Of a DNA stretch of 64,000 bases, positions 3,879-61,151 are shown piece by piece. The DNA lies in the NCBI GenBank assembly GCA_017479935.1, contig JAFVBO010000066.1:26533-90532 (forward strand). Direction: 5' to 3'. Each line of letters begins with the position of its first letter. Position 1 is the stretch's first letter. A program made the translations under genes and the position numbers. The notes beneath the pieces were generated by a model, which searched no databases, was not told the DNA's origin, and saw only the letters and a list, made by a program, of their open reading frames with translations. The stretch comes from Lachnospiraceae bacterium. Its GTDB lineage: Bacteria; Bacillota; Clostridia; Lachnospirales; Lachnospiraceae.

Positions 3879-3903
3879 AAAAGCGCAGCCAGGTAGGAAG
3901 AGA

Positions 3904-15541: not shown

Positions 15542-18151
15542 ATGAGCGCGCAGGCGGACAATCAAATACGGATTTCGGTGCGCGCTCTGGTGGAGTTTCT
15601 CTGCCGCAGCGGGGACATAGACCTGCGGGCGGGTGCCGGAAAAGTAACAGAAGCGATGCAGGCGGGATCCCGCCTGCATCGTAAAATTCAGGGGCAACAA
15701 AATCTGCTTTATCAGGCAGAGGTGCCACTTTCGGAAGATGTGCTTCTGCCGGAGAGCGGAGGGCTTGTCCTGACTTTGGAGGGCCGCGCGGACGGCATTT
15801 ATCAGATCTCCGGCGGCCTGCCGGGAAATCAGGATCTCTGGGTGATCGATGAAATCAAGTGCATGTACCGGGATGTACAGACGCTGGAGGAACCCGTCCC
15901 CGTGCATGAGGCCCAGGCCAAGTGCTATGCCTTCATTTGGATGCGGCAGAAGCACCTGCGCCGGATCGGCGTGCAGATGACCTACTGCCAGATGGAAACG
16001 GAAAGTCTGCATGTGTTCCGGAAAATCTATATCCGAAAAGAGCTGGAAAGCTGGTTTACCGCCCTCTTGAACGAATATCGGAAGTGGGCGGTTCTTCTTT
16101 CCGGGGAACGGGCCGCCTTCCTGAAAAGCGTGGCAGGGCTGGAATTTCCCTTTGCCTATCGGCCCGGGCAGCGGGACATGGTGGCGGCGGTTTACCGCAG
16201 CATCGTCCGGAAGAAAAACCTGTTCGTCCAGGCGGCGACCGGCGTGGGAAAGACCATGTCCACCGTTTTCCCGGCCATCCGGGCCATGGGGGAGGGGTAC
16301 GGGGAGAAGCTGTTCTACCTGACGGCCCGGAATGTGACCAGGGTTGTGGCGGAAGAATCCCTGCGCATTTTGCGCGGGCAGGGCCTTCATTTTTCGGCGG
16401 TGACGCTGACGGCTAAAGAAAAAATCTGCCCCTTGGGCAAGCCGGAGTGCCGGCCCGATCTTTGCCCCTACGCGAACGGCCATTTTGATCGGGTGAACGA
16501 TGCCCTGTATGAACTCCTGACGAGTGAGCAGGAAATTCGCCAGGCGCAGCTCCTAAAGGTTGCCGAGAACTATCAGGTGTGCCCCTTCGAGCTGGCCTTG
16601 GACGCGACCAGTTTCACGGACGGTGTGCTGTGCGATTACAACTACGCCTTCGACCCGGATGTCCGGCTGAAACGCTTCTTTGCGGAAGGAAGTTCGGGGC
16701 GGTACCTGTTTTTGGTGGATGAAGCCCACAACCTGGCAGAGCGGGCGCGGGACATGTACAGCGCCACGCTGGTCAAGGAAGATTTCCTGACCGTCAAACG
16801 GCAGATGAAGACGGTCAGCAAAAAACTCGAAAGGCAGCTGGACCGCTGCAACAAAGTGCTGCTGGAATACAAGAGAGAATGCGAGAAGGTACTGGTGTTG
16901 TCCGACATTGGCCCCCTGTACTTAGGGCTCACGATGCTGTTTGCGGAGATGGAGGAATTCGGGGCGGAGCACGGCGGGTTTGACCCCGGCGAGGATTACC
17001 GGAACCTGTTCTTTGCGATCCGGCATTTTTTAAACATGTACAGCGAAATCGGCGACGATTACCGGATCTACGCGGAGCACACCGGGGAGGGAAAGTTTAA
17101 CCTGACGCTGTACTGCGCGCATCCGGCCAGGCATCTGAAGAAATGTCTGGAGAAGAGCCGGCAGACCGTCTTCTTCTCGGCGACGCTCCTGCCCGTCACC
17201 TACTACAAGGACCTTTTGGGCGGAGAGGAGGAGGACTACGCAATCTACGTTCCCTCGCCCTTCCCCGAAGAAAACCGGCGGATCGTGATCTGCCGGGACG
17301 TAAGCAGCCGCTATCGGCAGCGCACGCCGGCCATGTACAGGCGTATTGCGAAGGAACTCCTTCTGATGACAGAAGGAAAAAAGGGGCATTACCTGGCCTT
17401 CTTCCCCTCCTACGCGTTTCTGCGGCAGGTGCTGGCCTGCCTGGAGGAGACGACGGGCAGCGCCGAAGATGCCATTGTTTTGCCGGACGGTACGGAGCTA
17501 AAGTTCCGGGAGCGGGAACGGCAGGCGGGGACAGACCTGTCCCTCTGCGTGCAGAAGGAAAGCATGACGGAAACCGAGAAGGAAGCCTTCCTGGAAGAAT
17601 TCCGCAGCGCCTCCCCGGAGAAGAGCATGCTGGGTCTGTGCGTGCTGGGCGGCTCTTTCTCGGAAGGCATCGACTTAAAAGGAGAGCACCTGATCGGCTG
17701 CGCAGTGGTGGGTGTCGGCCTGCCGCAGGTTTGCACGGAGCGGGAGATTTTGCAGGACTTCTATCGGGAGAGAAGTGAGGCTGCTTTGACCGCATCAAGT
17801 GAAGGATTTGTCCTGGCATCGATGAGCTCTGGCAAAAAAGGATCTGCCTTGGCTTCACCCGCGGCAGGCAAAGCTATTGCCCCAGGGCAGACGGGGCTTG
17901 CGAAGCGGAACGGCTATGATTATGCCTACCGCTTCCCGGGCATGAACAAGGTACAGCAGGCCGCCGGTCGTGTGATCCGTACGATGACGGACCGGGGCGT
18001 GATCCTTCTCATGGATGATCGCTTCCTGGATCCGGAGGTGCAGGATCTCTTCCCGCGAGAGTGGAAGCATTTCTGCGTGGCAGACGAGAGGTCCCTGAGC
18101 CAGGCGCTGCAGGATTTTTGGCGGCAAGGAACTGCCGGAGATATTTCATAA
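15542..18151 (+). CDS. XPD/DinG-like Fe-S DNA helicase with N-terminal PD-(D/E)XK nuclease-like domain
   Basis: 869 residues. Residues about 1-170 resemble a Cas4/RecB-type nuclease fold: EGRADGIYQ...WVIDEIKCMYR contains the expected D...E-x-K, with a later HEAQAKCYAF segment. The helicase begins near 200: RPGQRDMV (Q-like motif), Walker A AATGVGKT and DEAH-type LVDEAHNL. Four Cys (CPLGKPEC, then DLC, then VCPF) match the 4Fe-4S cluster of XPD-type helicases. Motif VI is present as QAAGRVIRT. Between the SEGIDLKGE motif and GYDYAYRFPGMNKV there is a Ser/Ala/Gly-rich insert of about 45 residues (bases 17785-17910) that I do not expect in this family. The likely role is DNA repair or unwinding of structured DNA. 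It follows the cyclophilin gene. Confidence 0.88.
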   Translation: MSAQADNQIRISVRALVEFLCRSGDIDLRAGAGKVTEAMQAGSRLHRKIQGQQNLLYQAEVPLSEDVLLPESGGLVLTLEGRADGIYQISGGLPGNQDLWVIDEIKCMYRDVQTLEEPVPVHEAQAKCYAFIWMRQKHLRRIGVQMTYCQMETESLHVFRKIYIRKELESWFTALLNEYRKWAVLLSGERAAFLKSVAGLEFPFAYRPGQRDMVAAVYRSIVRKKNLFVQAATGVGKTMSTVFPAIRAMGEGYGEKLFYLTARNVTRVVAEESLRILRGQGLHFSAVTLTAKEKICPLGKPECRPDLCPYANGHFDRVNDALYELLTSEQEIRQAQLLKVAENYQVCPFELALDATSFTDGVLCDYNYAFDPDVRLKRFFAEGSSGRYLFLVDEAHNLAERARDMYSATLVKEDFLTVKRQMKTVSKKLERQLDRCNKVLLEYKRECEKVLVLSDIGPLYLGLTMLFAEMEEFGAEHGGFDPGEDYRNLFFAIRHFLNMYSEIGDDYRIYAEHTGEGKFNLTLYCAHPARHLKKCLEKSRQTVFFSATLLPVTYYKDLLGGEEEDYAIYVPSPFPEENRRIVICRDVSSRYRQRTPAMYRRIAKELLLMTEGKKGHYLAFFPSYAFLRQVLACLEETTGSAEDAIVLPDGTELKFRERERQAGTDLSLCVQKESMTETEKEAFLEEFRSASPEKSMLGLCVLGGSFSEGIDLKGEHLIGCAVVGVGLPQVCTEREILQDFYRERSEAALTASSEGFVLASMSSGKKGSALASPAAGKAIAPGQTGLAKRNGYDYAYRFPGMNKVQQAAGRVIRTMTDRGVILLMDDRFLDPEVQDLFPREWKHFCVADERSLSQALQDFWRQGTAGDIS

Positions 18152-18341
18152 ATGCATGGGGAATGGCCCGATAGGGCCAGAACCCCATGCATTCCAGTTT
18201 CCGGAAGTTTCATGAATGCATGGGGAATGGCCTGAAAAGGTTTGAACCCCATGCAATTTAGCTTTCGAGAACTTCTCAAATGCATGGGGAATGACCGCAA
18301 AAGGCCGAAAACCCATGCAATGAAGCCTCCGGAAGCTCTAC
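18151..18341 (+). repeat. Three tandem hairpin units, 64-base period
   Basis: Units start at 18151, 18215 and 18279, exactly 64 bases apart. Each begins AATGCATGGGGAATG and closes with (A)CCCCATGCA(A/T), so each folds into a hairpin with a 9-bp TGCATGGGG/CCCCATGCA arm and an inner GGCC-type stem. Linkers between units are also similar (CCGGAAGTTTCA, CGAGAACTTCTCA, CCGGAAGCTCTAC). The array starts on the last base of the helicase stop codon. There is no T run after it. Confidence 0.85.
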
Positions 18342-22740: not shown

Positions 22741-23463
22741 TCACGCGCGCCCGGCGATGAGTTCCTGAAGTTCCTCCGGCGTCAGAGGCCTGAAAGCGCC
22801 AGGCGCAAGGGTTTCATCCAGAACGAGGGATCCCATGGACAGCCGCTTTAAGCTGAGAACCGGCTTGCCGACCGCCTCCATCATGCGCTTGACCTGATGG
22901 TACCGCCCCTCCTGGATGGTGAGCGTCAGCGTGCTGATGGGGCCGCTCTCCAGAATTTCGGCCCTGGCGGGAAGCGTGGGCTTTTCATCGCCGATATCCA
23001 CGCCTTCTTCGAGGCGCTTTATGTCATCCGGCGTGACCGCTCCGTCCGCAGTGAGCAAGTATATCTTGTCCACATGCTTTTTGGGGGAGAGCAGCTGGTG
23101 CGCGAGCACGCCGTCGTCCGTGATCAGAAGCAGGCCTTCGGTATCCTTGTCGAGGCGCCCGACCGGAAACAGATTGCGGCCGGCTTCCGGCCCCAGAAGA
23201 TCCAGGACGGTCTTTTGACGGGGATCCTCCGTGGCGGACACCACGCCCGCCGGTTTGTTCAGCATATAATAATGAAAGCGGGAGTAGGAGAGGGTTTTGC
23301 CTTTGAACACGATGGCATCCGCTTCCGGATCCACCTTCTCATCCGGGTTTGCGCAGATCGTGCCGTTCACGGACACGAGTTTCTTCCTAATTAACTGCTT
23401 GACTTCGCTGCGGGTGCCGGCGCCGGCCTCCGCCAGAAATTTATCCAGACGCATGAGGGACAT
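22741..23463 (-). CDS. rsuA: RsuA-family 16S rRNA pseudouridine synthase
   Basis: 240 residues. An S4 RNA-binding domain at residues 4-50 (MRLDKFLAEAGAGTRSEVKQ) is followed by the pseudouridine synthase domain. It contains YYMLNKPAGVVSATED, the catalytic Asp motif PVGRLDKDTEGLLL, and EGRYHQVKRMMEAVG. By family it should isomerise U516 (E. coli numbering) of 16S rRNA. The symbol is by homology; related enzymes of the RluB/RluF group are the alternative. AAAAGGAG lies eight bases before the start at 23463. Convergent with DUF1934. Confidence 0.9.
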   Translation of the reverse strand: MSLMRLDKFLAEAGAGTRSEVKQLIRKKLVSVNGTICANPDEKVDPEADAIVFKGKTLSYSRFHYYMLNKPAGVVSATEDPRQKTVLDLLGPEAGRNLFPVGRLDKDTEGLLLITDDGVLAHQLLSPKKHVDKIYLLTADGAVTPDDIKRLEEGVDIGDEKPTLPARAEILESGPISTLTLTIQEGRYHQVKRMMEAVGKPVLSLKRLSMGSLVLDETLAPGAFRPLTPEELQELIAGRA

Positions 23464-23489
23464 GGGGGGTTCTCCTTTTTAAGGTAGTT

Positions 23490-23630
23490 CGTAACTGCTC
23501 AGTAGCTGAGCAGTTACGAAGCCACAGGCAATGCGCTCCGCGCATTCCAAATTGCCTATGGCTTGGCATGCCAACTCTTGTTTTACGCCGCTTGCAGCGG
23601 GGTGCAAGCGGCTGTGCTGAGTAGATACGG
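23490..23630 (+). repeat. Dispersed structured repeat family A, copy 1
   Basis: About 140 bases made of three hairpins: CGTAACTGCTCAG-ta-GCTGAGCAGTTACG; GCCACAGGCAAT...ATTGCCTATGGC, which encloses GCGC...GCGC; and GCCGCTTGCA-gcgggg-TGCAAGCGGC. It ends TGCTGAGTAGATAC. A second full copy lies at 59704-59842 and a truncated inverted one at 32028-32081. The first hairpin differs among the three copies at paired positions. Intergenic, between rsuA and DUF1653. Confidence 0.85.
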
Positions 23631-23664
23631 TAGTTCAATATTAAGATATCATATAGATGGAAAA

Positions 23665-31993: not shown

Positions 31994-32027
31994 AAAACGC
32001 AAAGCGGACAAAGAGTTTTCCGGGATC

Positions 32028-32081
32028 CGCGAAGCGCATTGCCTGTGGCTTCGTACCTGCTCAGGTACTGAGCAGGTACAA
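32028..32081 (-). repeat. Dispersed repeat family A, truncated inverted copy
   Basis: Read on the minus strand: GTACCTGCTCAGTACCTGAG continues to CAGGTAC, then GAAGCCACAGGCAATGCGCTTCGC, as in copies at 23490 and 59704, then homology stops. The first hairpin is again a perfect palindrome of different sequence. It ends about 20 bases before the 6S RNA promoter. Confidence 0.7.
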
Positions 32082-32101: not shown

Positions 32102-32130
32102 TTGTCAAATCGGTTTTTACATAGTATAAT
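32102..32130 (+). promoter_or_regulatory. Promoter of the 6S RNA gene
   Basis: TTGTCA (32102-32107), 17 bases, perfect TATAAT (32125-32130). It points at the structured RNA and the TPR gene behind it. Confidence 0.7.
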
Positions 32131-32136
32131 CGCCGT

Positions 32137-32343
32137 GTCTGAAAAAAACTACTCATCAGCCTGGGGTGTTCGCCAACCTGTTTTTTTGAACCTACATTTT
32201 GACATACGGGACTCCTATATCGTTACACGGATGTCAGGCCTTATCTTTTAGATCAGAGGAAGGCTGAAGTGTTAACTGCGGAAACCCACCTAGCTCTGCT
32301 AGGCGTCAGAACTACAGGAAACGGCACTCTGGGTTGTCTTTGT
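32137..32343 (+). ncRNA. ssrS: Probable 6S RNA
   Basis: About 200 bases of non-coding sequence directly after a good promoter. CAGCCTGGGGTG (about 32157) pairs over 12 positions, counting G-U pairs, with CACTCTGGGTTG (about 32325-32336), forming a closing stem. The inside shows hairpins GCCTT...AAGGC and CCTAGC-tct-GCTAGG around larger unpaired stretches, the long-rod-with-bubble plan of 6S RNA, which binds the sigma-A RNA polymerase. Segments such as TGTTCGCCAACCTG and GAACCTACATTTTGACAT fit what I recall of Clostridial 6S RNAs. No SRP core (GGTCCGGAAGGAAGCAGC-like) is present. The assignment is from structure and memory, not a search. Confidence 0.7.
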
Positions 32344-35737: not shown

Positions 35738-35900
35738 GGATGCAAGGCATGAGCGAAGAACTTGTTCTTCAGCTCATGCAATTGCATCCGAGCGCGCAAC
35801 AAAATGAGGCATACAGCTACGCGACCAAAGGGAGCGGAGCGAATGCCGAATTTTGTTGCAGCGGCGCGTTAGTTGCGTAGCAACGAAGCGACGCATTTGC
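35738..35900 (+). repeat. Dispersed repeat family C, long copy with hairpins
   Basis: First hairpin: GGATGCAA...CATGAGC...GAAC pairs with GTTC...GCTCATG...TTGCATCC (35738-35789). Second: CAACAAAAT pairs with ATTTTGTTG around a 45-base loop. The end (GCCGAATTTTGTTGCAGC ... GTTGCGTAGCAAC...ACGCATTTGC) matches the copy at 9511. The whole element lies in the leader of the RND gene. Confidence 0.7.
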
Positions 35901-35942
35901 TTTCCCGGGAAGTGTATCAATGCGCAACAAGAAAGGCAGAAC

Positions 35943-38900
35943 ATGATCGCAAAATTTAGTGTAAAAAAACCGTTTACAGTCATGGTCGGGGTGGTTCTGG
36001 TACTCATCCTTGGCTTTGTTTCCTTTACCCGGATGACGCCGGACCTTCTGCCCAGCATCAACCTGCCTTATGCGCTTGTCATGACAACGTACGTCGGGGC
36101 AACGCCGGAGGAAGTGGAGGCGACCGTTACGAAACCCATCGAGCAGTCGATGGCGACATTAAGCGGCATCAGCAGCATTCAGTCTGTCTCTTCGGAAAAT
36201 GTCTCCATGGTCATCCTGGAATTTCAGGAAGACGTCAACATGGACACCAAGACGGTGGAAATGCGCGAGAAACTGGATACCCTGGGCGGCGCCTGGGATG
36301 ACATGGTGGGGACGCCCAGCATCATGAAGATCAACCCGGATATGCTGCCGGTCGTGGTGGCTGCCGTCTCCGTGGAAGGGATGGATTCGGAGGAAATCTC
36401 GGATTTCCTGGACAAGAACATTATTCCAAGGCTGGAAGGCACGGAAGGCGTGGCTTCGGTAAGCGCAAGCGGAAAGATCAGCACGCAGCTGAACGTCCTG
36501 CTCAGCCAGAAAAAGATTGATGAGGTCAACAGAAAGATTCAGAAGGTGGTGACCGACCAGCTCGATGGGCACATCAAGGACCTCGAGGATGCCCGGGCGG
36601 AGCTGGCGGATACGAGGCGGCAGCTGGAGGAAGCCAACGAGGCTTACGCGGCCGGCGTTTCGCAGGCGAGCGACGGATTTGCGGCTGCCAGAATGGAGAT
36701 TTTATCCGGCGAGATGACCATCTCCGCCGCTGAGGAGGAGATCGCGAAGCAGGAAGCGGAACTGTACAAGCAGATGGCCGCTTTTACGGGGGTCACGTAT
36801 TCGGACCTGGATTCGCTCGAGAAAGCACTCGTCGATTTGCAGGGAAGTCTGGCCGGTCAGGAGGAGCAACTGGCCTCTGCGGAGGAAGCCATCACCTTGG
36901 TGGAAACGCAGATGAACCAGCTGTTTGAGGCGGTCTTAAAGCCTTATGTCGATGAAAACGGCAACTTGGTGTTCCCGGATGGCTCTGAGGAAACCAGCGG
37001 GGAGGAAGAGAGCACTGCGGAGGAGCCGGAGAGCACATCGGAGGAAGCGGAGAGTACCGCGGGAGAACCTGAGAGCACTGCGGGAGAAGCGGAAAGTACA
37101 TCGGCGGAAGCGGAGAGTACCGCAGGAGAGCCAGAAAGTACTTCGGAAGAGCCGGAGAGCACCGCAAGTGAGGTAGAAAGCCAGAGCCCGTCGGAGCCGG
37201 AGAGCACCGCGAGCGAGGTAGAAAGCCAGAGCCCGTCGGAGCCGGAGAGCACGGCGAGCGAGGTAGAAAGCCAGAGTCCGTCGGAGCAGGAGAGCACGGC
37301 AGGCGAAGTGGAAAGCCAGAGTCCGTCGGAGCCGGAGAGCACGGCAGGAGAGGTGGAAAGCCAAAGCCCGTCGGAGCCGGAGAGCACCGCGGAGGAGCCG
37401 GCGAGCCCTGCAAGTGAGGAACAGCCGGTTTCGGAAGAAACCGAGAACACCATAGAAACAGAAAACAGCGTAGAGCCTGCTCAGAGCACAGAGCCGGAAA
37501 ACACCGAGGCGGAAGAGGGCCAGGGAGAAGAAATCGCCCCCACGGAGGAACAGCAGAATCCGTTGGCGGTAGCCGCCCCGGCCGAGAGCATTCCGGCGGA
37601 AAGCCCTTTGCCTGAGACAGAGCCCGCGAAAGAGACTGCGGAGGAGATGACGTTAGAGCCGGAGAGCTCCGTGATCTATCATCGCACGACTGGGAATTTT
37701 GCCAGCCGTGCGTTCCTGGCGGAGGGCGATACGCCCGAAACCCGTGCCGCGGATGACGCGAATGCCACGGAAACCCGCGCCGCGGATGACGCGAACGAGC
37801 CGGGCGAAGCCGGGGAGACGACGGTTGTCAGCTATGACGAGCTGTATGAGGCTTTTCAGAAGTGGCAGGACTACATTCTGCAAAAGGAGCAGATCGCTAC
37901 AGCCCGTGAGCAGCTGGAAACCGCCAAGGACGGGCTTCCGAAGGCGCTGGAGGGAATTCGCGCCTTAAAGGCTGCCAAAGCGGAACTGGCCGCCGCGCGG
38001 GAACAGCTGGAGATCGGCAAAGCCTACTTAGATGAGCAGGAACGCGCGGCCACGAGCGAAATGAACGCGGCAGGCGCGCAGATTTCCGAGGGCCTTGCGC
38101 AGGTAGGCAGCGGCGAGAGCCAGATTGGGCAGGCGATCGAGGTGCTGAACGGAGCCCGCTCGGATGCCTTAAAGCAGGCGAACATCAGCGGCGTCATCAC
38201 CATGGATATGATTTCCCAGATCCTGTCGGCACAGAACTTTGCGATGCCGGCCGGGTATGTGGAGGAAGAAGGCGTAAACTGGCTGATCCGCGTGGGCGAT
38301 AAGCTGAAGGGCGAGGAGGAGCTGAAGAACCTTTTCCTGTTTGACATGGGAATCGAAGGAGCCGATCCGATCTATCTGGCGGATGTGGCAGATGTCTTTT
38401 ACAGCAACAATGCGGCGGAGATTTACGCGAAGATCAACGGAACGAACGGCGTTCTCTTAAGCATGAACAAGCAGTCGAATTATTCGACCGCGGAAGTGTC
38501 GGACAACGTCTCGGATACCTTCAAGGCGCTCGAAAAGGCATTCCCGGGGACGCGCTTTACCATGTTGTCCGACCAGGGCGATTACATTGACCTGGTTGTG
38601 AACACGGTGTTACAGAACCTGATGTACGGCGCCGTGCTGGCGATCCTGGTGCTGATCCTGTTCCTGAAGGATATGAAGCCCACGCTGGTCATCGCCTGCT
38701 CGATCCCGATCAGCGTTGTGTTCGCGTTCGTGCTGATGTATTTTTCCAACATCACCCTGAACGTGATTTCCCTGTCGGGCCTCGCGATCGGCGTCGGTAT
38801 GCTCGTGGATAACTCGGTTGTCGTTATCGAAAATATCTACCGGCTCCGCAACAAAGGCGTGCCGGCGGCGCAGGCGGCCGTGTCCGGAACCGTGCAGGTG

Positions 38901-40691
38901 GCCGGTTCCATCACGGCTTCCACGCTGACCACGGTCTGCGTGTTCCTGCCGATTGTGTTTATCGAAGGCCTGACCCGGGAACTCTTCACGGACATGGCCC
39001 TCACGATCGCCTATTCGCTGTTCGCCAGTCTGATCGTGGCCATGACGCTGGTGCCGGCGATGGCCGCAGGACTTTTGAAGGATACGAAGGAAAAACCGCA
39101 CCGGATCTTTGATTTCTTTATGAAGGGCTACCGCGTGGTGTTAAACGGATGCCTGAATCACAAGGCGTTTACGCTGATGGTCGCGGTCCTGTTCCTGGTG
39201 GTGTCGGTCATGGGTTCGGTTCAGAAGGGAACCGCCTTCATGCCTGCCATGGACAGCACGCAGATTTCGGTGAATGTGACGATGCCGGAAGGCGCCGAGT
39301 GGGAAGACACCGTGGAGACGGCTGACCTGGTATGCGAGCGGATCCTGAAGCTGGATGGCGTGGAGACGGTCGGCGCTCTTGTGGGCGGTGGCTCGCTCTT
39401 AAACCGTTCCGGTGGAAGCAATGATTCGGTGACGGTGTACGTCATCCTGCGGGAAGATAAGACCGAAAGCAGCCAGCAGATTGCGACCCGCATCAACCAT
39501 CTGTTTGACGATGTGGCGGCGGAGGTCAGAGCGTCCGGTTCCGCCAGCATGGATATGTCCAGCCTGACCGGCAGCGGCGTCTCCATCCGCGTGTCCGGAA
39601 ACGATCTGGACGATCTGCGAAATACCGCGCAGAATCTGGCGGATCGGCTTGCGACGGTGGAGGGCATCGCCGAGGTGTCGAGCGGCATCGAGGATCCCAC
39701 GCCCGAACTTCGCATTACGATCAACAAGAACGAGGCGATGAAGCAGGGGCTGACCGTCGCGCAGGCGTACATGAGCCTGGCGGAAGCGCTTTCCACCAGC
39801 AAAACCGCCACCACGCTGACGGAAAATCAGAATGAATATTCCGTGATTATCACGGATGAAAAGAGAACCGAGATGTCGCTGGAGGACATTCGAAACTATG
39901 TCTTCAAGGTGACGGACCGCACCGGGGTGGAGAAGGAAATTCCGCTTAAGGATGTGGCCACGGTCACGGAGACCGAGGCGCTTTCCTCCATCTCCCGCTA
40001 TGAACAGAACCGCTACCTGACGCTGTCCGGTACGCTGGCGGAAGGCTACAATGTCGGCCTTGTGAGCGGAGATGTGGAGCGCGCGATCCGCGATGTGGAA
40101 ATCCCGGATGGTATCAAGACCGAGTTTACCGGTGAGAACGAAACCATCAACGAGGCGTTTGAGCAGCTGGGACAGATGCTCGCGCTGGCGCTTGCGTTTA
40201 TCTATCTGATCATGGTCGCGCAGTTCCAGTCGTTAAAATCTCCTTTCATCGTCATGTTTACGATTCCGCTTGCCTTTACGGGAGGCTTTTTGGCCCTGTG
40301 GATCGCGGACATGGAGGTGAGCGTCATCGCGCTGTTAGGTCTCATCATGCTGTCCGGTATCGTCGTCAACAACGGTATCGTGCTGGTGGACTTTGTCAAT
40401 CAGCTGCGGGCCGAGGGCACGCCCAAGCGGGAAGCGCTCCTTGAGGCCGGCGTCACACGTATGCGTCCGATTTTGATGACCGCGATCACGACCATCCTGG
40501 GTCTGACGACGATGGCCATCGGCGTGGGCATGGGCTCGGAGCTGATGCAGCCGATCGCGGTGGTCACCATCGGCGGTCTGACGTATGCCACCTTTATGAC
40601 GCTGTTTGTGGTACCGGTTCTGTATGATCTCATGAACAAAAAAGAGCTCCACGTCCTGACGGACGCAGAGCTGGAAGTGGTAGACCTGTAA
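35943..40691 (+). CDS. RND-family efflux permease with a ~550-residue repetitive insertion
   Basis: 1582 residues, against about 1030-1060 for ordinary AcrB/SwrC-type pumps. ATG 35943 (MIAKFSVKKPFTVMVGVVLV) sits behind GAAAGGCAG. The first membrane segment (about 10-28) and porter start (TPEEVEATVTKPIEQSMATL) are normal. From about residue 195 to 745 there is an extra segment: coiled coils rich in Ala/Glu, then a disordered Ser/Thr/Glu/Pro region with seven 7-residue and five 15-residue repeats (residues 356-479), then more coiled coil. After SGVITMDMISQIL the usual pump resumes, with membrane helices (VVLIENIYR-like VVVIENIYRLRNKGV) and the second half. The insert is predicted to lie outside the membrane. 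The substrate is unknown; no membrane-fusion partner is adjacent. Confidence 0.9.
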   Translation: MIAKFSVKKPFTVMVGVVLVLILGFVSFTRMTPDLLPSINLPYALVMTTYVGATPEEVEATVTKPIEQSMATLSGISSIQSVSSENVSMVILEFQEDVNMDTKTVEMREKLDTLGGAWDDMVGTPSIMKINPDMLPVVVAAVSVEGMDSEEISDFLDKNIIPRLEGTEGVASVSASGKISTQLNVLLSQKKIDEVNRKIQKVVTDQLDGHIKDLEDARAELADTRRQLEEANEAYAAGVSQASDGFAAARMEILSGEMTISAAEEEIAKQEAELYKQMAAFTGVTYSDLDSLEKALVDLQGSLAGQEEQLASAEEAITLVETQMNQLFEAVLKPYVDENGNLVFPDGSEETSGEEESTAEEPESTSEEAESTAGEPESTAGEAESTSAEAESTAGEPESTSEEPESTASEVESQSPSEPESTASEVESQSPSEPESTASEVESQSPSEQESTAGEVESQSPSEPESTAGEVESQSPSEPESTAEEPASPASEEQPVSEETENTIETENSVEPAQSTEPENTEAEEGQGEEIAPTEEQQNPLAVAAPAESIPAESPLPETEPAKETAEEMTLEPESSVIYHRTTGNFASRAFLAEGDTPETRAADDANATETRAADDANEPGEAGETTVVSYDELYEAFQKWQDYILQKEQIATAREQLETAKDGLPKALEGIRALKAAKAELAAAREQLEIGKAYLDEQERAATSEMNAAGAQISEGLAQVGSGESQIGQAIEVLNGARSDALKQANISGVITMDMISQILSAQNFAMPAGYVEEEGVNWLIRVGDKLKGEEELKNLFLFDMGIEGADPIYLADVADVFYSNNAAEIYAKINGTNGVLLSMNKQSNYSTAEVSDNVSDTFKALEKAFPGTRFTMLSDQGDYIDLVVNTVLQNLMYGAVLAILVLILFLKDMKPTLVIACSIPISVVFAFVLMYFSNITLNVISLSGLAIGVGMLVDNSVVVIENIYRLRNKGVPAAQAAVSGTVQVAGSITASTLTTVCVFLPIVFIEGLTRELFTDMALTIAYSLFASLIVAMTLVPAMAAGLLKDTKEKPHRIFDFFMKGYRVVLNGCLNHKAFTLMVAVLFLVVSVMGSVQKGTAFMPAMDSTQISVNVTMPEGAEWEDTVETADLVCERILKLDGVETVGALVGGGSLLNRSGGSNDSVTVYVILREDKTESSQQIATRINHLFDDVAAEVRASGSASMDMSSLTGSGVSIRVSGNDLDDLRNTAQNLADRLATVEGIAEVSSGIEDPTPELRITINKNEAMKQGLTVAQAYMSLAEALSTSKTATTLTENQNEYSVIITDEKRTEMSLEDIRNYVFKVTDRTGVEKEIPLKDVATVTETEALSSISRYEQNRYLTLSGTLAEGYNVGLVSGDVERAIRDVEIPDGIKTEFTGENETINEAFEQLGQMLALALAFIYLIMVAQFQSLKSPFIVMFTIPLAFTGGFLALWIADMEVSVIALLGLIMLSGIVVNNGIVLVDFVNQLRAEGTPKREALLEAGVTRMRPILMTAITTILGLTTMAIGVGMGSELMQPIAVVTIGGLTYATFMTLFVVPVLYDLMNKKELHVLTDAELEVVDL
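37008..37379 (+). repeat. In-frame tandem repeats inside the RND permease gene
   Basis: Seven 21-base units encoding ESTxxEx (37008-37154) are followed by five 45-base units encoding ESTASEVESQSPSEP with small changes (37155-37379). Units of the second block differ at only a few bases, a sign of recent expansion. All changes keep the frame. Confidence 0.9.
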
Positions 40692-43646: not shown

Positions 43647-46600
43647 ATGAGGATGAAGAGAATTGAGAGAACCATTGGAGCGGCGGTTCTGGCCCTGGCG
43701 TTGACCTGTGGCAGTCTGCCGGCTTTTCCGCAACTGGCTTTGGCGGACGGGGAAGTGGTTGCCGAAGGAAGTGAAGGGGCGGAAGGGACACAAGAGAAAA
43801 AAGACCTGAAGGGGCTTCAGATTTCCAAGGACGGGTTTGCGTGGTTCTACGGTCAGCTGAGCAAGAACGAGAAGGTCTACTACGATGCCCTGAAGAAGGC
43901 GGAGGACCTGACAAAATTCGCCAAGGAGGAAGCTCCGAAAGCGGAGGAGGGGGCTGCGACTGCAGAAGAAGGAGCGGCCACCGAGGAAAAGGGACTGGTC
44001 CTGAATGTGGCAGGAACCTACACGCTTTCCGGGCTCACGCGGGAAGAGATCGATCAGGGAACCTACAAGAACCGTGAGGATTATAAAAAGCTGGAGAAAA
44101 CCATCCAGGGCGAGGTGGCCCGGGCCATGATGGCTTATGGCTATGATTATCCCCAGGTGTTCTGGCTGGATGGCGCCGAAGTCAAGACAAAGCTGAGCTT
44201 TGCGGAAACCGAAAACGGCTGGAAGCTCAGCGTGGATCAGGTGACACTGATCTTAAAGGAGGCGTACAAAGACGCTCGCAAGGACATTCCGGATGTGGAG
44301 AAGGCGTTAGATAAGGCCGTGTTTGAGGCGAGAGCCCTCCTGTGGGAAGGCGCCGGCTACACAGACACGGTGCGCGTGGTCCACAACTATGTCCTTCAGC
44401 TGGGAAGCTATGTAAAGGAGAATCCGGAAGAAGACATGTCCGAGGAGGAACTGATCCTGGAAGAGGAATTTTTCCTGGAAGAGGAAGAGGTCCTGGAGGA
44501 TGAAATCATTCTGGACGAGGAACTGGACCCGGAGAGTGCAGCGGAAGCAGCCGCGGCCGAAGCGGCAAAGGCCGATGAAAAGAAACCGAAGAAGGAACAG
44601 GGTCAGTATAAGACCATCGCCGGCATCCTGTTGGAGAAATATCAGCATGAAGCGACTGCGGAAGGCTATGCGAAGCTGATGAAGGTCCTGCTTGACCGCA
44701 TGAACAACCTGGTCTTAAACAATGTTCTTGTGAGCGGAACCACATCGGATGAAGTGAGCGGAACCACGCCGGGCGAGAAGAAGGAACCGACGAAGCACAT
44801 GTGGAACCTGGTCCAGATGAAGGATCAGAACTGGTATCTGGCGGATGCCTATCTGGATGATCAGGAAACGCCGGCGGAAGTTTACGTCGCGGTGGAGGCA
44901 ACTGAGCCAGCCCATAAAGACGGCGTCACCGTGGAAGAGGAGCATAAGTCGTCGGGCGTTCTGATCAAGGATTTCCCTGCGTTTAAGTATCCGCCGCTTT
45001 TTGGAAGCAAGGAAGCCGAGGAAATCAAGCCGGAGGAACCGGAAGAGCATGTCCATACCTTCAGCGAGTGGAAGACAGACTGGGAAGCCACCTGCACGGC
45101 GGAAGGGCAGATGAGCCGTACCTGCACAGTCTGCGGCGAGGTGGAGACCGAAGTGATCCCCATGAAGGATCACATGTGGAGCGACTGGGAAGTGACGAAG
45201 GAAGCTACCTGCGGCGAAGCGGGCGAGAGAGCGCGCTTCTGCCTCGTGGGAGGCGAAGTGGAGACGGAAGCCCTTCCGGCTTTAGAGCACGCGTGGGGTG
45301 AGTGGATCTCGGATGAGAACGCCACCTGCACGGAAGACGGTACGGAGAGCCACACCTGCGCCAACTGCGGGGAGACGGAAACCCGCACGGCAGAAGGCTC
45401 GGCCCTTGGCCACGCCTGGAGCGAAGAGTGGACGATCGATCAGGAAGCGACCTGTACGGAAGATGGTATGAAGAGCCGTCACTGTGAGCGTTGTGGGGAA
45501 GTGTCCGAGATGGAGGTGATCCCGGCGACGGGGCACAGCTTCGGTGAGTGGACGGTTTCGAAGGAAGCGACCTGCCAGGAGGCGGGCGAGCAGATCCGCG
45601 TGTGCAGCGCCTGCGATACGGTCGAGACCGAAGTGATCCCTCAGAAAGGCCACGTATGGAGCGACTGGGAAGTGACCAGGGAAGCCACCTGCGGCGAAGC
45701 GGGCGAGAGGGCGCGCTTCTGCCTTGAGGGAGGCGAAGTGGAGACGGAAGTTCTTCCGGCCTTGGAGCACGCCTGGGGCGAGTGGACCTCGGATGAGAAC
45801 GCCACCTGCACGGAAGACGGAACCGAGAGCCGCACCTGCGCCAACTGCGGTGCCACGGAAACCCGCACGGCGGAAGGCTCCGCCCTGGGTCACGCCTGGA
45901 GCGAAGAGTGGACGATCGACAAGGAAGCCACCTGCACAGAGGAAGGCATGAGAAGCCGTCACTGCGAGCGCTGCGGGGAAGTGTCCGAGATGGAGGTGAT
46001 CCCGGCGACGGGGCACAGCTTCGGTGAGTGGACGGTTTCGAAGGAAGCGACCTGCCAGGAGGCGGGCGAGCAGATCCGCGTGTGCAGCGCCTGCGATACG
46101 GTTGAGACCGAAGTGATCCCGCAGAAAGATCACGTATGGAGCGACTGGGAAGTGACCAGGGAAGCCACCTGTGGCGAAGCGGGCGAGAGAGCGCGCTTCT
46201 GCAGCGTGGGAGGCGAAGTGGAGACGGAAGTTCTTCCGGCGTTAGAGCACGCCTGGGGCGAGTGGAATTCGGATGAAAACGCCACCTGCACAGAGGACGG
46301 AACAGAGAGCCGCACATGCGCCAACTGCGGTCATAAGGAAACCCGCACGGCGGAAGGCTCCGCCCTGGGCCACGCCTGGAGCGCGGAGTGGACGATCGAT
46401 AAGGAAGCCACCTGCGCGGAAGAAGGCATGAGAAGCCATCACTGTGAGCGCTGCACGGAAGTGTCCGATATGGAAGTGATCCCGGCCAAGGGACACAGCT
46501 TCGGCGAGTGGACGGTTACGAAGGAGGCGACCTGCCAGGAGGCAGGTGAGCAGATCCGCGTGTGCAGCGTCTGCGACACCGTCGAAACGGAAGTGCTTCC

Positions 46601-47936
46601 TCAGAAAGAGCATGCGTGGGGCGAGTGGACGGTTACGAAGGAAGCCACCTGCCGCGAAGCGGGCGAGAGAACACGCACCTGCAGCGTTGGCGGCGAAGTG
46701 GAGACGGAAGCCATTCCTACCTTAGAGCATGCGTGGAGCGAGTGGACGGTTACGAAGGAAGCCACCTGCGAAGATGCCGGCGAGAGAAGCCGCGTGTGCA
46801 GCGCGGGCGGAGAGACGGAAACCGAAGCGCTGCCGGCCTTAGGGCACAAGTGGAGAGACTGGATCTCCGATGAGAACGCGACCTGTACGGATGACGGAAC
46901 CGAGAGCAGAACCTGCTCCGTGTGCCAGAAGACGGAGACGAGAGTCAAAGAAAATTCCGCGCTGGGACATGACTTCAGCCTGGAGTTTACCGTCGATATT
47001 CCGGCCACAACCGAGACCGAGGGCGTGAAGTCCCGCCACTGCATCCGATGCACCGAGCGGACGGATCTGACGGTCATTCCGGTGCTCTCCGGCACCGTCA
47101 TCACGGAAGTGATCAGTGATCAGGCAGCCGGAGCCAGCTCCGAAACCGACCTGAAGGCCGTGCTGGATCTGGTATTGTCGGAGGATGAGATTGCGCTGAA
47201 GAAGACCGGTGTGCCGGTAGCGCTGCGCCTGAACGTATCGGTAATCACGTCCCTGCCGGGAAGCGATTATTCCAATATCATCAGTGCTGTCAATAACGCG
47301 GAAAAAACCTACCGGGTGGGAGAGTATCTGAATATCGAACTCTTAAAGACCGTGGATACGACGACGACCGTTGTCAAGACGACAGAGACACCGATACGTC
47401 TCACCGTCACCATTCCGGAAGGAATGCGAAAGAGCGCGAACGCCAGAAACCAGCGCATTTTCGAAATGCTGCGGGTTCACGAAGGACAGACCGATTTCCT
47501 GCCGGATCTGGACGAGGCGGAAGAAACCATCACTTTCGAGACAGACAAGTTCTCGACGTACGTGCTGGTCTACCGGGAAGAGTCGACGGCGGAGCCTGTC
47601 ATCCCTGTGACCGAGCCGCCGGCAACGGAGCCGCCTGTCACGGAGCCTCCGACAACGGAAGCCCCTGTCACGGTAGCGCCGACGACAGAAGCGCCTGTCA
47701 CGGTGGCCCCGACGACGGAAGCCCCTGTCACGGTTGCCCCCACCACGGAAGGCAATGTCGGCCGGGAAACCACGAAGGCTGCTCCGGCGACAGAACCGCC
47801 CACATCAGGCGGCGGCGCCCGGACGGGCGATGACAGTCCCATCCTGCTCTACGCGGTGCTGGCGATTGTGGCCTTCCTGATACTGATCATTCTGATCCTG
47901 ACTTTGGCGGGAAGAAAGAGATCAAAAAGGAGATAA
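43647..47936 (+). CDS. Large surface protein: transglutaminase-like domain without catalytic Cys, 17 Cys-rich repeats, C-terminal anchor
   Basis: 1429 residues. A signal peptide covers about 1-33 (AAVLALALTCGSLPAFPQL). Residues about 50-460 resemble a transglutaminase-like domain: the TAEGYAKLMKVLL segment, His384 in HMWNLVQ and Asp400 in WYLADAYLDD fit the triad, but the catalytic Cys position holds Ala338. An acidic insert lies at about 265-320. Residues about 470-1148 hold 17 repeats of about 40 residues of the pattern H-x-W-x-EATC-xxxG-x-C-xxC-x-ET-x-IP. A beta domain (1149-1310) follows, then a Thr/Pro stalk with TEAPVTVAPT repeats, ARTGDD and a membrane helix with a KRSKRR tail. The anchor resembles a sortase signal but lacks a clear LPxTG. 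Probably an exposed adhesin or scaffold. Two ATGs (43647, 43653) are possible starts. Confidence 0.85.
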   Translation: MRMKRIERTIGAAVLALALTCGSLPAFPQLALADGEVVAEGSEGAEGTQEKKDLKGLQISKDGFAWFYGQLSKNEKVYYDALKKAEDLTKFAKEEAPKAEEGAATAEEGAATEEKGLVLNVAGTYTLSGLTREEIDQGTYKNREDYKKLEKTIQGEVARAMMAYGYDYPQVFWLDGAEVKTKLSFAETENGWKLSVDQVTLILKEAYKDARKDIPDVEKALDKAVFEARALLWEGAGYTDTVRVVHNYVLQLGSYVKENPEEDMSEEELILEEEFFLEEEEVLEDEIILDEELDPESAAEAAAAEAAKADEKKPKKEQGQYKTIAGILLEKYQHEATAEGYAKLMKVLLDRMNNLVLNNVLVSGTTSDEVSGTTPGEKKEPTKHMWNLVQMKDQNWYLADAYLDDQETPAEVYVAVEATEPAHKDGVTVEEEHKSSGVLIKDFPAFKYPPLFGSKEAEEIKPEEPEEHVHTFSEWKTDWEATCTAEGQMSRTCTVCGEVETEVIPMKDHMWSDWEVTKEATCGEAGERARFCLVGGEVETEALPALEHAWGEWISDENATCTEDGTESHTCANCGETETRTAEGSALGHAWSEEWTIDQEATCTEDGMKSRHCERCGEVSEMEVIPATGHSFGEWTVSKEATCQEAGEQIRVCSACDTVETEVIPQKGHVWSDWEVTREATCGEAGERARFCLEGGEVETEVLPALEHAWGEWTSDENATCTEDGTESRTCANCGATETRTAEGSALGHAWSEEWTIDKEATCTEEGMRSRHCERCGEVSEMEVIPATGHSFGEWTVSKEATCQEAGEQIRVCSACDTVETEVIPQKDHVWSDWEVTREATCGEAGERARFCSVGGEVETEVLPALEHAWGEWNSDENATCTEDGTESRTCANCGHKETRTAEGSALGHAWSAEWTIDKEATCAEEGMRSHHCERCTEVSDMEVIPAKGHSFGEWTVTKEATCQEAGEQIRVCSVCDTVETEVLPQKEHAWGEWTVTKEATCREAGERTRTCSVGGEVETEAIPTLEHAWSEWTVTKEATCEDAGERSRVCSAGGETETEALPALGHKWRDWISDENATCTDDGTESRTCSVCQKTETRVKENSALGHDFSLEFTVDIPATTETEGVKSRHCIRCTERTDLTVIPVLSGTVITEVISDQAAGASSETDLKAVLDLVLSEDEIALKKTGVPVALRLNVSVITSLPGSDYSNIISAVNNAEKTYRVGEYLNIELLKTVDTTTTVVKTTETPIRLTVTIPEGMRKSANARNQRIFEMLRVHEGQTDFLPDLDEAEETITFETDKFSTYVLVYREESTAEPVIPVTEPPATEPPVTEPPTTEAPVTVAPTTEAPVTVAPTTEAPVTVAPTTEGNVGRETTKAAPATEPPTSGGGARTGDDSPILLYAVLAIVAFLILIILILTLAGRKRSKRR
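45138..46577 (+). repeat. Three 480-base super-repeats inside the surface protein gene
   Basis: Blocks begin near 45138, 45618 and 46098, each four 40-residue repeats (160 residues). Long stretches are nearly identical between the blocks, for example GAGACCGAAGTGATCCC and AGCGACTGGGAAGTGAC. This indicates recent duplication of a four-repeat unit, and a site where copy number can vary by recombination. Confidence 0.85.
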
Positions 47937-58904: not shown

Positions 58905-59708
58905 ATGGCAAGGAAGAGTTCGAACATAACCCGCGCCGAGGCGCGCAAAAGACGCCAGAAAATCAAACTGATAGCAGTGCTGGCAGCGGCACTGCTGTTT
59001 GTGATTCTCGTGGGTGTGGCGTTATCTCTTCGGATTGAAACGATCCGCTTTACCGGAAATACCCATTATTCGAATGAGGAGATGGAGGCGCTTTTGTATC
59101 CCGGCGCCTTGGACCGCCTGTATCTGTACGACCGTCTGAAAGAGCGCCTGGGAAAAAGCGTGGAAATTCCCTACATTGAGCGGATTGAAAAGACTTACCC
59201 GAATGCGCACAGCGTGGATATCGTTGTCTACGAAAAGAGTCTGACCGGCTGCATTCATTACATGAACAGCTATATGTATTTTGATAAAGACGGCATGATC
59301 GTGGAAAGCGACACGGAAAAGATGGCCGGCATCCCCGTCATCACCGGTCTGTCCTTCCAGAGAATCGTCCTGTTTCAGGAGCTGCCGGTGAATAACCGGG
59401 AGATTTTTGTTACGATCCTAAACCTGACGCAGCTCATTCAGCTGTATCATATTCCGGTGGAAAGCATTCACTTTAATCTGTACCGGCAGGCAACCCTGTA
59501 TCTGTCGGACGAGGAAACAGATGGCGGTATGAAACTGGGAGGCATTGTGGTCGAACTGGGGGACAGCACCGATCTGGAGGAGAAGATGGCGGAGCTGAAA
59601 AATCAGATCGCTTACCTGTCCGGATTGAAGGGAACCTTACATCTGGAGACATTTGACCGAAATGCTGCTAATCCGCGCTATATTTTCACAATGGCGGAGA
59701 CATCGTAA
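58905..59708 (+). CDS. ftsQ: Cell division protein FtsQ/DivIB
   Basis: 267 residues, start ATG 58905 behind AGAGGAAGG. A basic N-terminus, one membrane helix (about 22-42, LIAVLAAALLFVILVGVALS), then a POTRA domain (IETIRFTGNTHYSNEEMEAL) and a beta domain (IERIEKTYPNAHSVDIVVYE). It joins FtsL in the divisome. The tail is unusual only in its low conservation. A repeat of family A begins at the stop codon. Confidence 0.9.
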   Translation: MARKSSNITRAEARKRRQKIKLIAVLAAALLFVILVGVALSLRIETIRFTGNTHYSNEEMEALLYPGALDRLYLYDRLKERLGKSVEIPYIERIEKTYPNAHSVDIVVYEKSLTGCIHYMNSYMYFDKDGMIVESDTEKMAGIPVITGLSFQRIVLFQELPVNNREIFVTILNLTQLIQLYHIPVESIHFNLYRQATLYLSDEETDGGMKLGGIVVELGDSTDLEEKMAELKNQIAYLSGLKGTLHLETFDRNAANPRYIFTMAETS

Positions 59709-59842
59709 CCGTTCAGTACCTGAACGGTTACGATGCCACAGGCAATGCGCTTCGCGCATTCCAAATTGCCTGTGGCTGATATGCCAACTTTCATTTCACG
59801 CCGCTTGCAGCATAGGTGCAAGCGGCTGCGCTGAGCAGATAA
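59704..59842 (+). repeat. Dispersed structured repeat family A, copy 2, inside the dcw cluster
   Basis: Same three-hairpin plan as 23490-23630: CGTAACCGTTCAG-ta-CCTGAACGGTTACG; GCCACAGGCAAT...ATTGCCTGTGGC; GCCGCTTGCA-gcatagg-TGCAAGCGGC; the end is GCTGAGCAGATAAG. The first hairpin differs from copy 1 at several paired bases. It overlaps the ftsQ stop by 5 bases and separates ftsQ from the ftsZ promoter. Confidence 0.85.
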
Positions 59843-59987: not shown

Positions 59988-61151
59988 TTGTTAGAGATTA
60001 AAATAAACGAGTCCGACAGCGCGGCGAAGATAATTGTAATTGGAATCGGTGGCGCGGGCAATAATGCCGTCAACCGTATGATTGACGAAAATATCGTTGG
60101 AGTACAATTCATTGGAGTCAATACGGATCTGCAGGCTCTTCAGCTGTGTAAAGCTCCTGATCTCATCCAGATTGGCGAGAAACTGACCAAGGGCCTTGGC
60201 GCTGGCGCGAAGCCTGAAATCGGTGAAAAGGCTGCAGAGGAGAGCGCAGAGGTTCTGACCAATGCCGTGAAGGGTGCGGACATGGTGTTCGTTACCTGTG
60301 GTATGGGCGGCGGAACCGGTACCGGTGCAGCTCCCGTCATTGCCCGTCTGGCAAAGGAACAGGGCATCCTAACGGTAGGCGTTGTCACGAAGCCCTTCCG
60401 TTTTGAGGCAAGAGCCCGCATGAACAATGCCATCGCAGGTATTGAAAAGCTGAAAGACAGCGTCGATACGCTGATCGTCATCCCGAACGACAAACTGCTT
60501 GAGATCGTAGATCGTCGCACGACCATGCCGGAAGCCTTAAAGAAGGCAGACGAGGTTCTGCAGCAGTCCGTACAGGGAATCACGGACCTGATCAACGTTC
60601 CGGCCCTGATCAACCTCGATTTTGCGGATGTACAGACGGTTATGACCGAGAAGGGCATCGCCCACATCGGTATCGGCCGCGCAACAGGCGACGACAAGGC
60701 ACTGGAAGCCGTCAAGCAGGCGGTTGCCAGCCCGCTTCTGGAAACCACGATCGAAGGGGCCAGCGATGTCATCATCAACATTTCCGGCGATATCGGTCTG
60801 GTGGAAGCCAACGAGGCTGCCAGCTACGTGCAGGAGATGGTTGGCGAGAGCGCGAACATCATCTTTGGTGCCCGCTACGATGAATCCTGCCAGGATGAAG
60901 CCGTGATCACGGTTATCGCGACCGGCTTGGAAGAGGAATTCGAGCAGCAGCCGCTGGTCAAAAAAGAGAAGACACAAGTACCGCCCCTTCCGGTGAAGAC
61001 TCCTGTAAAGCCCACGTTTTTCACAAAGACGGAAACACCGAAGGAAGTGACGCAGGAAAGCATCGATAAGTTGACCAAGTCGGGCCCTTCTTATAAGGCA
61101 CCGCAGAGAAATACGATCAACATTCCGGATTTCCTGGTGAATAAGAGATAA
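59988..61151 (+). CDS. ftsZ: Cell division protein FtsZ
   Basis: 387 residues, start TTG 59988 with CAGGAGG at good distance. Tubulin-like GTPase that forms the division ring. [20 protein letters not shown], the tubulin signature [15 protein letters not shown], the T7 loop [11 protein letters not shown], a short linker and the C-terminal peptide [13 protein letters not shown], which in other bacteria binds SepF/FtsA-type partners. No ftsA in the cluster, as in most Clostridia. Terminator follows. Confidence 0.97.

Follow-up and report, generated by a model that had tools for sequence, protein, structure and literature searches.

Here, we examined a 64,000-nucleotide stretch of a Lachnospiraceae genome assembly (hereafter, the window), in which two full copies and one truncated, inverted copy of a hairpin-bearing repeat lie near an RsuA-like gene, ftsZ, and the 6S RNA gene. 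The original prediction, made from the letters of this stretch, had placed these copies within a few bases of the boundaries given below (the truncated one begins 6 bases earlier), had given first-hairpin arms and complementary changes that read as described in all three, and had named rsuA, ftsZ, and the 6S RNA promoter as neighbors, which are indeed present near the copies. The features of the window are as follows.

22741-23463: S4 and pseudouridine synthase (RsuA-like) gene
23483-23490, + strand: left copy of the 8-bp target duplication GGTAGTTC of full copy 1, read from the sequence
23491-23628, + strand: full copy 1 of a 138-bp miniature transposon (MITE), palindrome end first; fold z −5.3
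23491-23517, + strand: first hairpin (H1) of copy 1, a 27-bp palindrome made of the outer terminal repeat, 3 nt, and the inverted terminal repeat
23519-23564, + strand: second hairpin (H2) of copy 1, a 12-bp stem bearing a 6-bp hairpin (3-nt loop) and a 7-nt bulge
23587-23612, + strand: third hairpin (H3) of copy 1, a 10-bp stem with a 6-nt loop
23617-23628, + strand: right unpaired terminal inverted repeat of copy 1, reading inward on the − strand as GTATCTACTCAG
23629-23636, + strand: right copy of the 8-bp target duplication GGTAGTTC of full copy 1, read from the sequence
32022-32079, − strand: truncated inverted copy, comprising the palindrome (32053-32079) and part of H2
32102-32130: promoter-like site of 6S RNA
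32155-32339, + strand: 6S RNA (context, outside the element), RF00013, 78.6 bits versus a gathering score of 46.4
59705-59842, + strand: full copy 2, diverged, ~88% identical to the consensus
59988-61151: ftsZ

The 138-bp element codes for no gene, and the only match in the window at Rfam gathering scores is the 6S RNA, the element itself matching no family. A single C-A mismatch interrupts H2 of copy 1. In copy 2, two H1 pairs are changed, each in both arms; this copy provides the stop codon of an ORF at 58905-59708 and lacks a target duplication, its flanking 8-mers differing at 7 of 8 positions. The truncated copy lies between a deaminase-like gene and the promoter-like site of 6S RNA, just upstream of the latter, where its hairpin (32053-32079) and T-rich tail AATAATTTTG score as terminator-like. 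The sequence GGATCCGCGAA adjoins two truncated copies, one a left part and one a right part (window 32022-32033; L042, ~1463-1474), and may be either a deletion form or a further repeat. Other repeats were seen in the window: three tandem 64-nt units at 18144-18335, each with a hairpin whose arms resemble ATGCATGGGG / CCCCATGCAT; a 34-nt repeat around GGCGGATGGCCTGGGACCTG in four dispersed copies (at 3895, 9896, 34949, and 50304), possibly a second small-repeat family; and two internally repetitive, very long ORFs (43647-47936 and 35853-40691; 480-nt units, and 45- and 21-nt units), which by their look perhaps encode surface proteins.

A DNA search of the whole assembly (40 of 74 candidates scored) gave 68 matching stretches, and the further copies that the original prediction had called for were found: at least 34 full copies, 27 of them distinct, a full copy being one whose alignment to the unit begins no later than base 5 and reaches at least base 132. 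These were drawn from the returned loci and from 20 stretches fetched around further matches, and the count is a lower bound, as several contigs stop inside a copy or a few bases from one. Separately, a pattern for the palindrome, leaving three positions of each arm free, matched 47 sites in this genome versus 0 for the reversed control. Consensus arms were present at 34 of the 47; among the other 13, ten pairs were changed on both sides and still matched (7 sites), while eight pairs were mismatched (7 sites, one site belonging to both groups). A chance repeat is ruled out by the 47 versus 0 sites together with the target duplications described below. Longer forms with ~114 extra bases within H3, hairpin-rich where read, occur at G000:C136:27655-27909, C10:1353-1607, and C57:53410-53663 of the same genome and are possibly an older form of the element. 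At another locus (L009, 1612-1674), 9 bases separate a full copy from a solitary palindrome, and both are flanked by an 8-bp duplication of their own.

The element is bounded by terminal inverted repeats (GTAACTGCTCAG / GTATCTACTCAG), and among the 29 copies having both flanks, the flanking 8-mers are identical in 16 and differ by one base in 3 more (19/29). The match never reaches 9 or 10 bases in these 29 testable copies, and cross-pairing of flanks as a control gave 0 identical 8-mers in 812. Because of these exact 8-bp target duplications and inverted-repeat ends, the 138-bp unit is a non-autonomous miniature transposon (MITE), being short, non-coding, multi-copy, terminally repeated, and flanked by target-site duplications. 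In our own copies, many duplications finish in TTC where they meet the palindrome; as GAA follows the inner arm, the H1 hairpin is often longer by 3 bp; the inner arm may thus be an inverted copy of the element end plus 3 flank bases.

These same features bear on the partner that the original prediction had proposed, an enzyme of the RAYT/IS200 (Y1) type moving a REP-like element. The small palindromes and high copy number would suit such a system, and Y1 transposase matches are present in this genome (n = 9). However, Y1 enzymes are not known to produce exact 8-bp target duplications with terminal inverted repeats, both of which the element has; the GTAG (or CGTC) tag outside the stem is absent in 34 copies; and four of the nine Y1 loci, when examined, held the 12-base end three times, singly and with up to 3 mismatches, and the palindrome never. 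We therefore regard this reading as very improbable, the ends and duplications pointing to IS66 even though Y1 genes are present. As far as the portions available to us of a study of REP/GTAG palindromes and RAYTs describe them (PMC3733652), the 27-bp palindrome, when it stands alone, resembles them in being short and dispersed and in having alternative complementary stem letters, whereas the present element differs by its 8-bp duplications, IS66-like ends, and missing GTAG tag.

We take an 8-bp duplication with GTAA-type ends to point to IS66. The genome carries a single IS66-family gene, on contig C45, whose element end (GTTACTGTTCAG) agrees with the MITE at 10 of 12 positions on the left and 8 of 12 on the right. 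This element was rejected as the cognate, its ends fitting worse than those of the ISDge4 type, and a matching IS66 copy was not found in the assembly. According to the parts consulted of a report that also describes IS66 transposition as poorly characterized (PMC12898284), ISDge4 (an IS66 element in the ISBst12 group) transposed and has ends GTGACTACTCAGCA and GTAACTGCTCAGCA with an 8-bp direct repeat; against the ends given there, our MITE scores 12/14 on the right and 13/14 on the left, the left being 14/14 in 4 of the 34 copies. By that account, the two share asymmetric ends and the length of duplication as well as these terminal repeats, and the MITE differs from ISBst12-group elements in its 138-bp length, in holding no gene, and in having one end doubled into a palindrome. 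The element thus combines ISBst12-type ends with an 8-bp duplication.

Closer agreement between a MITE and an autonomous element of the same genome was found elsewhere. A more distant IS66 element (L207; ends GTATCTGTTCAG / GTAACTGTTCAG) has a single transposase ORF (NCBIfam IS66, 222.6 bits against a cut-off of 180), and at a locus with IS66 pieces (L211) the adjoining GTAACTACTCAGCACCCC agrees at 14 of 15 positions with the right end of our MITE; an 8-bp duplication was absent from the immediate flanks of both the C45 and the L207 elements. The L207 protein, searched against this genome and the palindrome-carrying genomes (14 together), matched in four: the C45 gene, G098, G099, and G250. 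Transposase fragments of its clade number seven in G099 and three in G250, all at contig ends, and look like what collapsed multicopy elements give. The IS end GTAACTGTTCAGTACCCC is present in 6 of the 7 and 3 of the 3 fragments, respectively, and in G099 the outer end most often found on the MITE (17 of 21 palindromes) is identical to the first 16 bases of this IS end, a 16/16 agreement within one genome against 10/12 and 8/12 in our own; the single G250 palindrome examined agrees at 15 of 16. Across 200 family genomes, the C45 protein had a match in 19 (our own included), while the carrier genomes with a match were 2/11 for the C45 protein, 1/11 for PF03050, and 3/13 for the L207 protein, a sparseness that may reflect the loss of such repeats from MAG assemblies. 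From these sequence comparisons, IS66 is well supported as the enzyme family, mobilization in trans by a candidate transposase of the ISBst12 type is likely, and we hold the joint claim, a 138-bp non-autonomous transposon linked to IS66 (ISBst12-type), to be probable. Carriage as phage or plasmid cargo was considered and rejected, since neither 72,556 plasmid records nor 50,697 phage records matched copy 1; viral contigs contained the exact H2 core 0 times and the exact palindrome once (L271).

At the DNA level, the 138-bp unit had no match in 97 sampled relatives. A palindrome scan of public genome contigs returned at least 93 stretches in at least 13 assemblies (by accession prefix), and 9 of the 13 assemblies listed are labeled Lachnospiraceae or a genus that we place there; one other, JAAVHG (labeled Oscillibacter), is a possible binning error, as a flank in it also occurs at a JAAVHR locus. 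In 13 MAG assemblies besides our own, the palindrome lies, among the matches listed, at the end of MITEs whose interiors are different. Two genomes, G098 and G102, contain a further MITE-like family starting GTAACTATTCAGGTAGAAAC, with dozens of matches between them on many contigs. Eight sequences were folded, and their recurrent layout consists of a terminal repeat, a hairpin, a linker, a stem with a nested hairpin (5-6 bp, 3-nt loop) and a 6-7-nt bulge, and the palindrome, with interiors unrelated by eye; relative to the palindrome, the bulge is on the other strand in our own family, and in some of the eight the minimum-energy form pairs the ends with the palindrome or alters the bulge.

Among the matches listed, 97 palindromes were classified: 48 lie in elements 79-254 bp long that also have a duplication and another terminal repeat, 24 are solo between 8-mers with at most 1 mismatch (17 perfect), and 25 fall in neither class. 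The 48 "full" elements were chosen by searching 320 bases for the best-scoring combination of terminal repeat and duplication; the duplication, itself a criterion of choice, is exact in 26 and has one mismatch in 12, two in 5, and three in 5; the terminal repeat has 3-4 mismatches in five of the 48. Orthologous sites of CAMWUK and JAAVHR provide filled and empty states. Two solos face clean empty sites (the first L184 palindrome/L252 and L189/L245), both clean sites thus concerning solo palindromes of other genomes, and solo L165 faces a near-empty site with a small deletion in L241. Three solos face a full element (L115/L152, L118/L128, and the second L184 palindrome/L254), and some solo palindromes are therefore deletion products, like solo LTRs. 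Elsewhere, a solo faces a variant palindrome (L177/L257) or an unrelated longer insertion (L133/L258); no alignment across the site was obtained for L164 and L186, and no ortholog was found among the matches listed for L127, L182, and L187. The 27-bp palindrome consists of nothing more than two oppositely oriented transposon ends separated by three bases, and it might itself be mobile, as the smallest transposable element with an 8-bp duplication and with arms held complementary by mutual recopying, which we consider unlikely.

Folding was far stronger than in shuffled sequences for both full copies (copy 1, z −5.3 and −6.1 on the two strands; copy 2, z −8.1; 0 of 200 shuffles as good) and, to a lesser degree, for the truncated copy (z −4.5; 1 of 200 as good). 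Among the genome's own copies, variable sites are 17/80 paired versus 35/58 unpaired (p = 3.5e-6), private changes fall at 13/80 versus 23/58 sites (p = 0.003), and the contrast remains without the 4 most diverged copies (11/80 versus 25/58, p = 1.6e-4). It holds within G/C sites alone (6/48 versus 16/28, p = 6e-5) and, weakly, within A/T sites (11/32 versus 19/30, p = 0.04), so base composition is not the explanation. Distinct changes per site are about one third as many in stems as elsewhere (0.32); the outer H1 arm has 0 uncompensated changes, and the right unpaired terminal repeat varies freely and the most, with 11 distinct changes in 12 sites. In H1, five pair cells are changed on both sides and still paired versus two broken, some of the five probably shared by descent; in H2 and H3, there are 0 two-sided, 8 broken, and 5 one-sided still-paired cells. 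The claim that pairing is kept in each copy is accordingly true for the most part, with exceptions in the C-A mismatch of copy 1 and in the 10 broken cells over the 34 copies.

Covariation was scored in an alignment (A1) of 26 of the 48 full elements, from 6 assemblies, with structures derived from the aligned sequences themselves; the 22 others comprise 16 of the CAMWUK/JAAVHR family, similar in fold but, by eye, unrelated in interior, and 6 that carry inserts or differ in length. Here, 97.8% of cells are paired, and two-sided changes, which across species reach the inner hairpins too, occur at 9 of 24 pairs, in 57 cells versus 18.0 (sd 3.2) in shuffles (0/500). The covariation score of 0.244 compares with 0.077 in shuffles and no more than 0.047 in slid controls, the latter weighing more because the shuffles ignore relatedness; further pair types number 13, not above shuffles (236/500). 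Neutral decay of a dead transposon, with the pairing a coincidence, could account for the 10 broken cells, but it is scarcely credible given the reduced rate of change in stems and two-sided changes far above shuffles. Neither of the outcomes that would have counted against the original prediction, substitutions spread evenly over paired and unpaired sites or no further copies, was seen.

How the pairing is kept is a separate question. We propose that the palindromic end would have arisen by inverted copying of the terminal repeat, that one stem arm may since have been recopied from the other by template switching so that stems stay paired, and that such recopying, more than host selection, would keep the arms complementary. 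Template switching in replication can create and mend hairpins, and in the parts seen of the work describing this (PMC8794818), two-sided changes leave stems perfect, as they do here; that work concerns RNA genes, whereas ours concerns many copies of a bacterial transposon. At two of the orthologous sites where a solo faces a full copy (L115/L152 and the second L184 palindrome/L254), the solo and full-copy hairpins differ in type, GTAAC/GTTAC versus GTATC/GATAC or ATATC/GATAT in the sister genome, the difference lying in both arms at once, barring separate insertions. Several observations run counter to general recopying: the same mismatch at pair 8 is present in 21/21 JAQUWF (G099) palindromes, one or two pairs are mismatched in 12 of the 24 solo palindromes (among them 7 from JAQUWF/JAQUXP with the pair-8 mismatch), and the arms of solo L118, opposite full copy L128, are mixed, as plain deletion predicts. 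We find that template switching fits the preserved pairing best, and we place the recopying step, taken alone, slightly below an even chance.

A serious rival to recopying, which leaves the transposon identity untouched, is selection during transposition itself: the hairpins would be needed as DNA structures (single-stranded or cruciform) by the IS66 machinery, and only well-folded copies would spread. The recurrence of a like architecture in families with unrelated interiors agrees with this, as does the finding that the most variable part is the unpaired right terminal repeat. Against it, stems are also poorer in private changes, most of which probably postdate insertion, and solo palindromes without inner hairpins carry target duplications, though some solos are deletion products. 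On balance, we consider such selection conceivable, if somewhat doubtful.

A benefit to the host is the other possibility, in which transcribed hairpins regulate or stabilize neighboring messages and selection keeps the pairing. The strong folding on both strands, the covariation across species, and the terminator-like truncated copy upstream of 6S RNA are what such a role might leave, and in B. cereus, 84/165 and 62/155 copies of bcr repeats (18 families) were in transcripts, according to the sections consulted (PMC3446304). However, among the 24 copies placed with a crude ORF caller, 9 are sense, 8 antisense, 4 divergent, and 3 convergent to genes (the other ten of the 34 being 6 at contig ends, 1 undetermined, and 3 inside predicted ORFs of 95-152 aa), and we rejected a strand-specific RNA function on the absence of orientation bias in the 17 tandem contexts. 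The 11 distinct one-sided changes in H2 and H3 likewise favor neither strand, leaving G-U on one strand in 3, on the other in 5, and on neither in 3, and the unit lacks a DNA-level match in the sampled relatives. We thus judge a host-beneficial RNA improbable. The closeness of copies to rsuA, ftsZ, and 6S RNA looks incidental among 34 copies, and the element would be selfish DNA, occasionally co-opted by chance of position, perhaps as a terminator before 6S RNA. Of the original description as a mobile, structured element under selection, mobility and structure are borne out by the ends, duplications, copy number, stem conservation, and covariation; selection is not established, because template-switch recopying would give a similar pattern and there is no orientation bias.

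MITEs as a class are already known, and what is new here is an IS66-type MITE with one palindromic end. As far as the consulted parts of the literature describe them (PMC2229807, PMC10969869), bacterial MITEs such as Correia/NEMIS, RUP, ERIC, and QMITE are likewise ~100-200 bp, non-coding, and mostly intergenic, with terminal repeats, duplications, stable stem-loops, and transcripts that fold, whereas the present element has IS66-type ends, a palindromic end, a stand-alone 27-bp derivative, and measured covariation; a word search of the review (PMC10969869) yielded no "IS66". The B. cereus bcr repeats are also MITE-like, intergenic, and multi-copy, with structure conserved in some families, a likeness that rests on their description, with the ends outside the comparison, in the sections seen (PMC3446304). 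In the MITE, IS66, and palindromic-repeat literature, searched mostly outside subscription journals, we found no published description of the element, and none joining MITE, IS66, and Lachnospiraceae.

Together, these observations link IS66 with a MITE superfamily found in Lachnospiraceae-type genomes and raise the question of the shortest possible transposable unit. They also offer a natural experiment in many copies and many species on whether two-sided hairpin changes reflect selection for structure or template-switch recopying.
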